Shown here: piece by piece, positions 6,241-8,970 of the stretch
Layout of the letters: the number at the start of each line of letters is the position of its first letter
How positions within the stretch are numbered: position 1 is the stretch's first letter
Assembly (NCBI RefSeq): GCF_023705585.1
Contig: NZ_BOQE01000001.1
Location: 650,501-714,500, forward strand
DNA: 64,000 nucleotides
Reading direction: 5' to 3'
Origin: Collibacillus ludicampi
GTDB lineage: Bacteria; Bacillota; Bacilli; Tumebacillales; BOQE01
Made by a program: the position numbers and the translations under genes
The notes under the pieces: generated by a model
Seen by the model: the letters and a program-made list of their open reading frames with translations, nothing else
Told to the model about the DNA's origin: nothing
Database searches by the model: none

Positions 6241-8892
6241 TTAATCATCCTCAAACGTAACATCTTCCTCTGTGATCATGATCAGCGATTCTTTGTCTAC
6301 CTCTTGCATCCCGTTGATTCGCGTCGACAGATTCATTTTGGCACGTTCGAATACCCGCTCTGCAAGTCTCCCGTTCCCGAAACTTTCATCCGCCTCCGAA
6401 CACTTGTGAATAAAATATTCCCACAATTTTTCCTCGGCCGCGTTCGTCAAACGATAATCAGACATGTGCGCTTTCCGCTTTACAATTTCAACGAGTTCAC
6501 TGGCTGAAAAATCGGGAAACTGGAGAGTAAAACGGATCCTGCTTTTCAAACCCGGATTGACCTTCAGCAATTCTTCCATTTCATCGGTGTATCCGGCAAA
6601 AATGACTGTGAATAGACCTTTTTTCTCTTCCATTTCTTTGATGAGCGTCGCCAGCGCTTCGGCACCAAAATCCTCTCGGTTACGCGCGAGGGCATACGCT
6701 TCATCGATAAAAAGGATCCCCCCTAACGCTTCCTTCACCTTCTCAGCGGTTTTTAACGCAGTTTGCCCCATGTATCCAGCAACCAGATCTTTGCGCGTCG
6801 CTTCGACGAAATGCCCTCGAGGCAAGATGTTCATGACCCGCAGGATCCTTCCAAGTAAACGGGCCACCGTTGTCTTTCCGGTTCCCGGATTTCCTGTGAA
6901 GGCCATATGAAAGGTGAGCGGTTCATCTTCCAATCCATGTTCCAGGCGCTTTTTTTCCAAAGCAATAACATCGATGACCTGTTTCACCCAACGCTTGACT
7001 TCGTCCAATCCCACGAGTCGTTCCAATTCATCCAATACACTTTCCAATGTCTCACCCTTGGCATCGCCTTCTTCCACAAAGTCTTCTGCCGTCAACGTTG
7101 TCCATGTGTCTTTCGACTTCCCTAGTTCCTTGGCGCGAACGGCATGGCGGATCTTCGCTTTTTCCATGCAATTCCGCACGGTTCGCGCATTGCCAAACGT
7201 TTCATCCAGCTTATGACGAAGCACTTGTTTCAACAACGCGTCTTTGGCGTCATCACTCAAGACATATTGATCGTTCTCCGCGAGAAACTCGGCAATCTGG
7301 ATCAATTCTTCATTTGTATAATCCGGAAACTCGAGATGAAACGGAATACGTTCGCGGAGTCCGGGGTTGTACGACAGAAACTCGAACATTTCCCTCTTAT
7401 AGCCCGCCAAGATCACGATCATTTGATCACGATAATCCTCCATCAGCTTGACCAACCCGTTAATGGCAGTGAGACCGAAATCTTTGCCCGAATCTTTTTT
7501 GTAGAGGGCATACGCTTCATCAATGAAGAGAATTCCTCCCATGGCACGTTTCACGTATTTGAGCAGATTGGCTTCCGTATGTCCCATATAAGCGCCTACA
7601 AGAACTTGCCGATCTACCTCTACCACGTGTCCTTTGGCAAGTACATTCAGTTCCTTAAAGATATTCCCAAGCATGCGCGCCACCATGGTTTTCCCTGTTC
7701 CGGGATTCCCAAGAAAGCACATGTGCAATGTAGGGAGTTTCATTGGAATTCCAAGGATGCCCATGCGTTCCTTTTCAAAAATGGCAAAATCGGCAATCTC
7801 TCGAATTTGCTTTTTTATAAGCGAAAGGCCAGGGAGTTTCTCCAGCAAAGCCAAGGTTGTCTCTTTCTCATTCGCTGATATTTGTTTTTCTATCGGTTCG
7901 CTCTTCTCTAACATAAGCTTCCATGGTTCGTCGGAGTCGGACAGTTCGTCGATACGAAGGTCATGGAGATTCTCTTCCGGATCTCCTGACAATGAATCTT
8001 CCGAATCGATGGGATAAGAGGGGCGGTTTTCTTTCTTCTCTTTGACAGGTAGGAGAGAAGCGTTCGACCATAATAGATGATCCCTCTGACCGGGCTTTAT
8101 CCCAGCATCTCCTTTCGAGATATAGAGAGTCGTTGCGGGAAGGGGTTTCAACAAAATCTCCCTTCCCATACCTAGGGAAACTGACTTTCCTTGCCATTGC
8201 AAACTTGAATGAACGGCCAAATAGACATGACGATTCTCGGTAAACACCACATCGACCACGGCTTCCCCGGGCAGTTGGGAAAGACGCTGATACAACGCTT
8301 CATACGGCCACAGGTAGACACCAGTTCTACGAGAGTCCGTAGGATATTCAACATGATGAATGCGGACTCTGCCGTCACTGACATGAACCTTGACTGTCGT
8401 ATCCGGGTAAACTTTTAATGTATCCAGCAAAGGGGCGAGAGCGGGAATCGTGAATCGGACGACACGATCGGGATCGTAATGGCGCTTGTAAAAAGAGATC
8501 GTATAGTCTTTTTCACAATCCGGCGCATGGATGATATGATTGGGTATGAGGAAATGTTTTTTCCCATGGGTAAAAGACAGAGTTGTGCTGCGAAAGCCCA
8601 ATGTGATCTTTCCGCATACCGTGTGAAAAAGTTCGATCATGTTTTTGAGTTTATGGACGAAGACACGACAATACAAGGCGGAAACGGCGGGAGATTCCCT
8701 GTCTCTCCGTTCGATCGGGATCGTTGCCCGATACACACTGTCCGAATCTTCATCAATGACCGTTAATGTCTCCTTCGTGAGATCGAGACGTAAAAAAATC
8801 GTTGTTTCATAAACCGGTTCTTTCACGTTCATGATTTCTTGCAAAGCGGACAACCAATGTTTTGCATCCACTGTGACTTTTACCGCTTGCAT
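6241..8892 (-). CDS. Double AAA+ ATPase (CbbX/SpoVK type) with a clamp-like N-terminal region
   Basis: An 883-residue protein with two CbbX/SpoVK-class AAA+ modules. Walker A GNPGTGKT occurs near residues 395 and 667, each followed by Walker B GGILFIDEAYAL near 450 and 725 and a sensor-1-like VIFAGY / VILAGY. About 290 N-terminal residues have no AAA+ character. They alternate beta-strand-like stretches in a pattern resembling DNA polymerase III beta-clamp domains (for example LTVIDEDSDSVYRATIPI, then KITLGFRSTTLSF). That resemblance is my inference. Bacillus SpoVK has one AAA+ domain, so the double arrangement is distinct. The ATG at 8892 follows AAGGGAAGG; longer reading into 9123 passes through a hairpin repeat and is rejected. 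Function unknown; such ATPases often remodel protein complexes. Confidence 0.82.
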   Translation of the reverse strand: MQAVKVTVDAKHWLSALQEIMNVKEPVYETTIFLRLDLTKETLTVIDEDSDSVYRATIPIERRDRESPAVSALYCRVFVHKLKNMIELFHTVCGKITLGFRSTTLSFTHGKKHFLIPNHIIHAPDCEKDYTISFYKRHYDPDRVVRFTIPALAPLLDTLKVYPDTTVKVHVSDGRVRIHHVEYPTDSRRTGVYLWPYEALYQRLSQLPGEAVVDVVFTENRHVYLAVHSSLQWQGKSVSLGMGREILLKPLPATTLYISKGDAGIKPGQRDHLLWSNASLLPVKEKKENRPSYPIDSEDSLSGDPEENLHDLRIDELSDSDEPWKLMLEKSEPIEKQISANEKETTLALLEKLPGLSLIKKQIREIADFAIFEKERMGILGIPMKLPTLHMCFLGNPGTGKTMVARMLGNIFKELNVLAKGHVVEVDRQVLVGAYMGHTEANLLKYVKRAMGGILFIDEAYALYKKDSGKDFGLTAINGLVKLMEDYRDQMIVILAGYKREMFEFLSYNPGLRERIPFHLEFPDYTNEELIQIAEFLAENDQYVLSDDAKDALLKQVLRHKLDETFGNARTVRNCMEKAKIRHAVRAKELGKSKDTWTTLTAEDFVEEGDAKGETLESVLDELERLVGLDEVKRWVKQVIDVIALEKKRLEHGLEDEPLTFHMAFTGNPGTGKTTVARLLGRILRVMNILPRGHFVEATRKDLVAGYMGQTALKTAEKVKEALGGILFIDEAYALARNREDFGAEALATLIKEMEEKKGLFTVIFAGYTDEMEELLKVNPGLKSRIRFTLQFPDFSASELVEIVKRKAHMSDYRLTNAAEEKLWEYFIHKCSEADESFGNGRLAERVFERAKMNLSTRINGMQEVDKESLIMITEEDVTFEDD

Positions 8893-8970
8893 AAAATCCT
8901 TCCCTTCGACAATCTTCCAACCTCTCTCCTTATACCATATGCAAAAATGGAGACCCGTGCCCAAAAAGAA

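Follow-up and report, generated by a model that had tools for sequence, protein, structure and literature searches.

The window analysed here, a 64,000-nucleotide stretch of the Collibacillus ludicampi genome, carries on its minus strand a gene for an 883-residue protein in which an N-terminus of predicted sliding-clamp fold is joined by a linker to two AAA+ modules (6241..8892; open frame, translation and family matches). The frame begins with an ATG at 8892 and ends with a stop codon at 6243-6241, exactly where the earlier note had placed it, and all features described below lie on the same strand. Predicted clamp domain 1 (residues 1-121, 8530..8892), delimited from the AF2 model, an alignment with DnaN domain I and a PDB profile search, comprises two beta-alpha-beta-beta-beta repeats, and predicted domain 2 (residues 145-250, 8143..8460; AF2 and Foldseek/VIA) comprises two further ones. 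Between them lies an interdomain loop (residues 122-144, 8461..8529) of partly low AF2 confidence (pLDDT < 50 at 125-137), which we take to correspond in position to the interdomain connecting loop of PCNA. A variable linker taken as disordered (residues 251-343, 7864..8142), recognised from the orthologue alignment and from the full-length AF2 model, in which it has low confidence and hardly any structure, leads to modules D1 (residues 344-604, 7081..7863) and D2 (residues 615-878, 6259..7050), both delimited by Pfam, NCBIfam and alignment. Their Walker A motifs, each GNPGTGKT in the alignment, are at residues 395-402 (7687..7710) and 667-674 (6871..6894).

The proposal that the protein contains two complete AAA+ modules is borne out by two stretches each of Pfam AAA and AAA_lid_6, a match to NCBIfam spore_V_K and the two Walker A motifs. 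The spore_V_K model (TIGR02881) scored 550.4 bits and TIGR02880 scored 469.9 bits, both above their cut-offs (422.95 and 459.25), and the EccA model TIGR03922 scored 408.7 bits, below its cut-off of 466.65. Walker A and Walker B motifs are intact in the tandem core. Two marks of the SpoVK/CbbX/EccA clade are the GY signature, with a tyrosine in sensor 1, and an asparagine four residues ahead of the first arginine finger (PMC10659427). The sensor 1 tyrosine occurs as AGY at residues 496-498 in D1 and 766-768 in D2, invariant in three aligned sequences. D1 has N509 and R513 in all three; D2 has N779 in all three, the residue four positions on being lysine in the window protein and T. avium and arginine in T. 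lacus. A candidate second arginine finger, GNAR570 and GNGR842, is also invariant in the three and, by its position, is presumably sensor 2. From the model scores and the sensor 1 signature we assign the AAA+ core to the SpoVK/CbbX/EccA clade. Clamp loaders such as RFC and DnaX are likewise AAA+ proteins and act on clamps, but they belong to another AAA+ family, as had been said from the sequence: the clamp-loader model dnaX_nterm gave 22.4 bits against a cut-off of 250, which is no membership, and on this difference from the 550.4 bits with spore_V_K a clamp-loader identity was rejected.

Within its clade the protein is distinct from the proteins with which we compared it. Bacillus subtilis SpoVK belongs to the same clade (spore_V_K, 550 bits for the window protein), but its N-terminal domain is short, with three strands and a helix (PMC10659427), and precedes a single AAA+ module, so that the window protein, with two modules and about 250 residues of predicted clamp fold, is not SpoVK proper; apart from this gene, the genome encodes a SpoVK-like frame of 332 aa with one module. 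At its N-terminus EccA carries TPRs together with a beta-helix (PMC10659427). In other Bacilli, tandem CbbX-like AAA+ proteins share the tandem core (43-44% identity for five proteins with helical N-termini), but their N-termini look, by eye, helical at five loci and beta-helical at one (G040), and hhalign found no similarity between the five helical ones and the clamp part. In a tree of 34 modules, the clamp-bearing D1 and D2 each fell on one side of a branch (support 99/97 and 100/99), and their grouping with the same module of the proteins with helical N-termini had support of 97/95 and 87/81.

Structure prediction and sequence comparison support a two-domain sliding-clamp (PCNA/DnaN) fold for residues 1-250. 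The earlier note had described a clamp-like region of about 290 residues and suggested fold prediction with Foldseek as a check; the fold was supported, all 50 PDB matches listed being clamp-containing, whereas the length was slightly off, because residues 251-343 form the variable, low-confidence and nearly structureless linker. AF2, given residues 1-260 and three orthologues, produced a best model (pLDDT 73.3, pTM 0.73) with four beta-alpha-beta-beta-beta units, and the five models were uneven (mean pLDDT 73, 65, 63, 52 and 41). Foldseek against the PDB returned 1378 matches at E<=10 and 517 at E<=0.001, and each of the best 50 of the 1378 was PCNA, 9-1-1, DnaN, a viral clamp or a clamp with its loader, the matching chain being judged by title and length; the best match listed was PCNA 5a6d (E 3.0e-10, probability 1.00, TM 0.61/0.64). 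The 50 entries listed by VIA had Z scores of 17.5-18.9 across 215-238 residues, the top one among them being 8fs5_G (18.9), with DnaN 8dt6_B at 18.6 across 225 residues and PCNA 3v61_B at 18.2 (rmsd 2.8 across 216 residues). A viral structure library gave 27 matches named PCNA, beta-clamp or processivity factor among the 50 listed, the other 23 being unnamed, uncharacterised or otherwise named. In the full-length AF2 model most of domain 2 was below pLDDT 50, and this model (pTM 0.36) was too weak for positioning the clamp on the AAA+ part.

Family models and sequence profiles were compared with the same region. No Pfam or NCBIfam family matched residues 1-250; none of the seven orthologues matched a Pfam clamp family at E<=1, no NCBIfam clamp family matched the N-terminal region of the window protein, and PHROGs gave unrelated rows only (E 0.14 or worse). 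A profile of the seven orthologues against 177,635 PDB sequences returned four matches at E<=10, all of them DnaN (E 0.57-0.88) and none significant singly. By hhalign, the N-terminal region scored 35.5 against 21 DnaNs (the frames of suitable length among 32 DnaN-type frames extracted), a score reached by none of 200 column shuffles (maximum 27.6); a control with the N-terminal regions of five tandem AAA+ relatives scored 15.2, and addition of the distant G004 relative lowered the score to 31.0. The hhalign probability was 33% for the whole region and 78% for domain 1 alone. Residues 2-67 are in register with DnaN domain I, which is the best-matching of the three DnaN domains (P 1.8e-5 for domain 1 against domain I), and domain 2 had no signal of its own against DnaN. 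In the profile-profile alignment, the segment LTVIDEDSDSVYRATIPI, previously likened to a clamp pattern, indeed falls in register opposite VILTGSDSEISIEITIPK of a DnaN domain I.

The predicted fold has the two beta-alpha-beta-beta-beta repeats per domain of DnaN, PCNA and 9-1-1, and two domains as in PCNA, where DnaN has three. It differs from these proteins in that identity in structural alignments is 5-16%, in that it is fused to a motor and without a Pfam match, and in that it is basic rather than acidic: the pI of the N-terminal region is 8.64-9.33 in all seven orthologues versus 4.68-6.04 in the 21 DnaNs. The genome encodes one normal DnaN and a second, divergent DnaN; descent from the latter was rejected, as hhalign gave no signal.

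The fusion was found in 8 of 14 examined genomes of one order, relatives of Tumebacillus. A search of the class, in which only part of the candidates were scored and G004 was missed, found it in 7 of 398 genomes, all seven of the same order, and a search of the phylum gave matches in 9 of 398 genomes at E<=0.1. The eight phylum matches besides the window's genome were taken as noise because they were short (E 0.006-0.09) and four had internal stops; with the class matches all in one order, a wider spread was rejected. The third of three loci from the contig search, in an Oscillospiraceae MAG, matched at 45% in its AAA+ piece and was rejected, having no clamp-like N-terminus by eye. The eight loci compared had no neighbour in common between genera, and one membrane-protein gene was common within Tumebacillus. 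Searches by tblastn at 1e-5 matched none of the 50,697 phage records and none of the 72,556 plasmid records, and a phage or plasmid gene was rejected on this ground; also rejected was an anti-phage system, for which PADLOC gave partial AAA+ matches only (e.g. IetA, E 2.6e-15) and the neighbours were not conserved. The predicted clamp part was shown to be under purifying selection, with dN/dS of about 0.32-0.45 in three Tumebacillus pairs, and 0.12-0.16 for the AAA+ part. The G004 relative has an N-terminus of 514 residues, 258 of them extra, which is acidic (its halves have pI values of 5.99 and 5.38); its extra residues gave no hhalign signal, and phmmer with all 514 found no match in the PDB. 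By eye, its strand-helix rhythm looks clamp-like.

Upstream of the gene is a sigma-E/sigma-K-like -10 element, GCATATGGTA (8933..8942), which starts 50 nt ahead of the ATG and is present in all eight orthologues as GCATANNNT with its first base at -50 to -40; we take GCATANNNT to be a form of the sigma-E/sigma-K -10 motif. In 2000 trials with shuffled upstream regions, GCATANNNT occurred in a mean of 0.023 of the eight and a maximum of two. Upstream comparison also identified a -35-like GCAC of sigma-K type (8957..8960) at a gap of 13 nt; GCAC is at the -35 place in five of the eight orthologues, with gaps of 13-16 nt, and was not found there in the other three (G002, G008 and G004). As described in PMC517825, sigma-E and sigma-K have one -10 in common, and sigma-K is set apart from sigma-E by a cytosine at the fourth -35 position, with a gap of 14-16 nt; in the 5-nt/10-nt convention of that source, the gap in the window is one below consensus. 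Genome-wide, exact GCAC-N14-17-GCATANNNTA showed no excess, with four sites versus five for the reversed control. One of the four lies 5' of this gene, and the others lie 5' of genes for an asparagine synthase, an Hsp20-family protein and a glycosyltransferase-like protein; asnO and cotM of B. subtilis are mother-cell genes (PMC517825). Among 18 SpoVK-like control genes, for which mechanical starts were used, GCATANNNT occurred in one (at -45) and CATANNNT beginning at -50 to -40 in four, and the genome's own SpoVK-like gene had no such -10 motif within 200 nt upstream. The eight loci contain 269 mechanical ORFs of 150 aa or more; four of these carry the motif at -55 to -40, and locus, strand and start identify each of the four as the clamp-AAA+ gene, whose mechanical start differs in the remaining four loci. 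The promoter class is like that of B. subtilis spoVK, which has one sigma-E and one sigma-K promoter (PMC517825). Because the sigma-E/sigma-K-type -10 is present in all eight orthologues and GCAC in five, the promoter suggests mother-cell expression during sporulation, rather than a role in replication.

We consider it reasonably likely that the protein is a tandem SpoVK/CbbX/EccA-type remodeller, produced by the mother cell in the course of sporulation, whose clamp-fold N-terminal domain recruits substrates. By analogy with CbbX, the AAA+ part would form a hexamer that tugs a partner protein, and the partner would be chosen by the clamp domain on its flexible linker, as is thought for N-terminal domains in this clade, where "a diversity of N-terminal domains ... 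might help recruit distinct substrates" (PMC10659427). Partner binding, and possibly DNA contact, is the probable use to which the clamp has been exapted, rather than service as a replicative processivity ring. The whole protein is best read as a dedicated late-sporulation chaperone with an exapted clamp as its recruiting domain.

Herpesvirus UL42 binds DNA by a basic face, and PCNA-like rings or such a face could instead keep the motor attached to the chromosome of the mother cell, there to strip or reshape DNA-bound proteins. The predicted clamp fold and the basic N-terminal region of all seven orthologues are consistent with this, but the net charge of the four would-be ring-lining helices is low (0 to +6 in the seven sequences), the strands have a higher net charge than the helices in five of the seven, the G004 relative is acidic and the promoter is of a sporulation type. 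A hexamer would have 12 clamp domains, against six in known clamp rings, which also speaks against a single ring per hexamer; we regard this explanation as unlikely. DnaN domain I provides half of the dimer interface, and the closeness of residues 2-67 to this domain raises the more doubtful prospect that the clamp part forms pairs with DnaN subunits or is a competitor for clamp-binding peptides, the motor unloading or inactivating replication clamps once the mother cell stops replicating; against this, the likeness to DnaN is weak and the neighbours are not conserved. Slightly less probable still is a self-loading DNA clamp and remodeller, in which the motor would open, close or drive its own clamp on the mother-cell chromosome without a clamp-loader complex. 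A wrong AF2 model from three sequences, with some other alpha/beta domain in place of a clamp, would suit the shallow alignment, the uneven quality of the five models and the lack of a Pfam family, but it is very improbable, since the Foldseek matches of the model, the blind search of PDB sequences with the profile and the register found by hhalign agree on a clamp fold.

Sliding clamps are best known as rings of replication and repair, which are opened by AAA+ loaders that are separate proteins and belong to another clade. If a SpoVK/CbbX-type chaperone contains a clamp fold, clamp and AAA+ proteins would have come together a second time, and a DNA-replication fold would enter the list of N-terminal domains of the clade. 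Those on record are TPR, beta-helix, beta-prism and helicase domains (PMC10659427), and the main text of that source does not contain the word "clamp". Among the matches listed from the open-access literature, no paper on a clamp-AAA+ fusion was found by title or abstract start, and no open-access papers were found that bring a sliding clamp together with CbbX or with SpoVK. The substrate-recruiting chaperone favoured here would offer a testable entry to a sporulation-linked remodeller, the relatives of its recruiting domain binding DNA and short peptides. It would also be a case in which a structurally clear predicted clamp escapes the curated family models tried.

The gene runs on the minus strand from an ATG at window position 8892 to a stop codon ending at 6241, an open frame of 883 codons plus stop that reproduces exactly the coordinates proposed in the earlier note; a AAGGGAAGG stretch lies 5' of the ATG. 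The last 540 residues of the product form two AAA+ modules, D1 and D2, where Pfam marks two stretches of AAA and two of AAA_lid_6, a lid for each module. The product scores 550 bits with the SpoVK model, above its cut-off of 423, and 470 bits with the CbbX model, above its cut-off of 459. In three aligned proteins, the Walker A GNPGTGKT is kept in both modules, the sensor 1 GY and the GNxR arginine are both conserved, and Walker B is FIDEA, with the variant FVDEA in D2 of Tumebacillus lacus. Because D2 has Lys at position +4 from the conserved Asn in the window protein, as in Tumebacillus avium (Arg in T. lacus), one arginine contact of this module may be weakened. The union of a clamp-fold N-terminus with tandem AAA+ modules is a new domain architecture inside a known clade; searches of an open-access library of 5.39 million papers listed none on such a fusion, nor any that pairs a sliding clamp with either CbbX or SpoVK, and "clamp" is absent from the main text of a survey of the clade (PMC10659427).

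AlphaFold2, run on residues 1-260 with three sequences only, gave a best of five models with mean pLDDT 73.3 and pTM 0.73 (means of 65, 63, 52, and 41 for the remaining four). The predicted order, a strand, a helix, and three strands, occurs four times: at residues 4-9/10-21/31-37/42-48/52-62; 72-78/79-89/95-100/104-109/112-117, plus a short 119-121; 145-149/152-160/166-172/175-178/181-185; and 191-196/197-206/212-217/223-228/243-248. Sliding clamps have the same repeat, two per domain, and PCNA has two domains, like the predicted clamp part. The earlier note had proposed a DnaN-like N-terminus and suggested checking it with AlphaFold and Foldseek, and the proposal held up: Foldseek against the PDB returned 1378 matches at E<=10 (best E, 3.0e-10), the best 50 of which were all PCNA, 9-1-1, DnaN, or viral clamp entries, some with their loader. 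VIA-align, for its own 50 listed entries, gave Z scores of 17.5-18.9. In a viral structure library, 27 of the 50 rows listed were named PCNA, beta-clamp, or processivity factor, and the other 23 had no name, were uncharacterized, or bore another name. A full-length prediction reproduced the element order of domain 1 and left domain 2 mostly below pLDDT 50.

Family models gave only chance rows for residues 1-253, a single one in Pfam (NTF2_SigF, E 0.17) and a single one in NCBIfam (DNA polymerase III delta-prime model, E 0.039, 13 bits versus a cut-off of 263), and the N-termini of seven orthologues, each scanned alone, did no better against Pfam and PHROGs. A profile of seven N-termini, searched blind against 177,635 PDB sequences, reached E<=10 with four entries (E 0.57-0.88), each of them a bacterial beta clamp; none is significant singly, and the weight of this sequence search is in the one fold that all four share. 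Aligned with 21 DnaNs by hhalign, the profile scored 35.5 (probability 33%, P 0.00045) in the register proposed in the earlier note, a score reached by 0 of 200 column shuffles (mean, 15.4; maximum, 27.6); a control made from the N-terminal regions of five tandem AAA+ relatives scored 15.2. Inclusion of the divergent sequence of relative G004 lowered the score to 31.0. Restricting the comparison to domain 1 and DnaN domain I raised the probability to 78% (P 1.8e-5); domain 2 alone gave no hhalign signal to DnaN.

Orthologues occur in 8 of 101 relatives (own genome counted) and in 8 of the 14 genomes examined of the same order, where a ninth row (E 0.156) was taken as noise; they are 32-38% identical to the window protein. 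A search of contigs names two carriers, T. avium and T. lacus, whose proteins are identical to those of genomes G013 and G007. For the clamp part, three Tumebacillus pairs give dN of 0.13-0.28 and dS of 0.40-0.82, a ratio of ~0.32-0.45 versus ~0.12-0.16 for the AAA+ part; by these rates the clamp part is under selection, looser than that on the motor. The linker changes fastest (dN 0.40-0.78); by eye, a short Trp-centered motif (WSN, WTN, or WKS; window ~8020-8110) recurs in 7/7 orthologues and the rest of the linker is variable. Other Bacilli tandem AAA+ proteins have unrelated N-termini, by eye helical at five loci and beta-helical at one (L044, in genome G040, and L039-L043 encode such SpoVK/CbbX-type proteins, beta-helix-like or helical in front), and the tandem core seems to exchange its front-end domains. 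A phylogeny of 34 AAA+ modules, whose midpoint root serves drawing only, puts clamp-bearing D1 on one side of a branch (99/97), and likewise D2 (100/99); each joins its counterpart from the proteins with helical N-termini (97/95 and 87/81). Given this grouping by position and the unrelated N-termini, the tandem core is probably older and the N-termini were swapped later. The N-terminus of the G004 relative (locus L100, 8335-11565) is twice as long, with 514 residues ahead of the AAA+ part. By hhalign (P 1.7e-8), homology to the clamp part covers the first 256 of these; the following 258 have no sequence signal, but judged by eye their rhythm is similar, and they may form another two clamp domains. 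Directly upstream in four Tumebacillus-type loci is a membrane-protein gene of TVP38/DedA-like appearance (L063 7812-8453, L064 7794-8420, L098 7421-8059, L099 7648-8277), absent from that place in the window.

A sigma-E/sigma-K-like promoter element lies 5' of the gene (window 8933-8960) and in the same place at seven other loci. The sequence GCATANNNT precedes the start in 8/8 orthologues, its first base at -50 to -40; in 2000 trials with dinucleotide-shuffled upstreams, it appeared in 0.023 of 8 on average and in 2 at most, a comparison in which the eight upstreams are related, not independent, and the motif was noticed beforehand. The -10 form for sigma-E/sigma-K is gCATAnnnTa. GCAC stands at a gap of 13-16 nt in five of the eight (the window, at 13, T. 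avium, T. lacus, G011, and G012) and is absent from the -35 place in the remaining three; as described in PMC517825, sigma-K and sigma-E promoters share the -10 and differ in one -35 base, C in sigma-K. Across the whole genome, GCAC-N14-17-GCATANNNTA has 4 sites versus 5 for a reversed control, i.e., no excess. The other three sites (G000, the same genome, contig 1, 731581-731608, 2605216-2605245, and 3007491-3007521) include one 88 nt 5' of an asparagine synthase gene (343 bits; cut-off 267), one ~21 nt from the likely start of an Hsp20-family gene (Pfam 40.6 bits; cut-off 20.8), and one 285 nt 5' of a glycosyltransferase-like gene (matches all below cut-offs). These are possibly sporulation genes; CotM is Hsp20-like. 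In Bacillus subtilis, PMC517825 places asnO under sigma-E and sigma-K control and cotM in the sigma-K regulon. The case for mother-cell expression during sporulation, built on these upstream sequences, is good; it falls short of proof because SpoVK-like control loci are mixed (GCATANNNT in 1/18 and CATANNNT in 4/18 at that distance) and the genome's own SpoVK-like gene has no such motif within 200 nt upstream.

By the pattern of its AAA+ clade, in which varied N-terminal domains may bring in different substrates (PMC10659427), the protein would be a chaperone dedicated to sporulation, in which the clamp-fold domain, tethered by a flexible linker, selects a partner protein. We lean toward this exaptation of the clamp as a recruiting module. 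A ring in which the clamp domains hold the motor on DNA seems unlikely: DNA contact is possible, the clamp-fold domain being basic in 7/7 (pI 8.64-9.33 versus 4.68-6.04 in 21 DnaNs), but the would-be DNA-facing helices are barely positive (0 to +6), the G004 relative is acidic, and the twelve clamp domains of a hexamer misfit one six-domain ring. A remodeller of DnaN is a reading we consider more doubtful still. Separately, an 88-kb contig of the genome encodes a second DnaN, which is divergent and 382 aa long (contig 2, 55484-56557; locus L102 5410-6558, minus strand; hhalign P 6.8e-43 to DnaN); with the SSB-like frame seen by eye close to it, it may represent the replication module of a plasmid or prophage.
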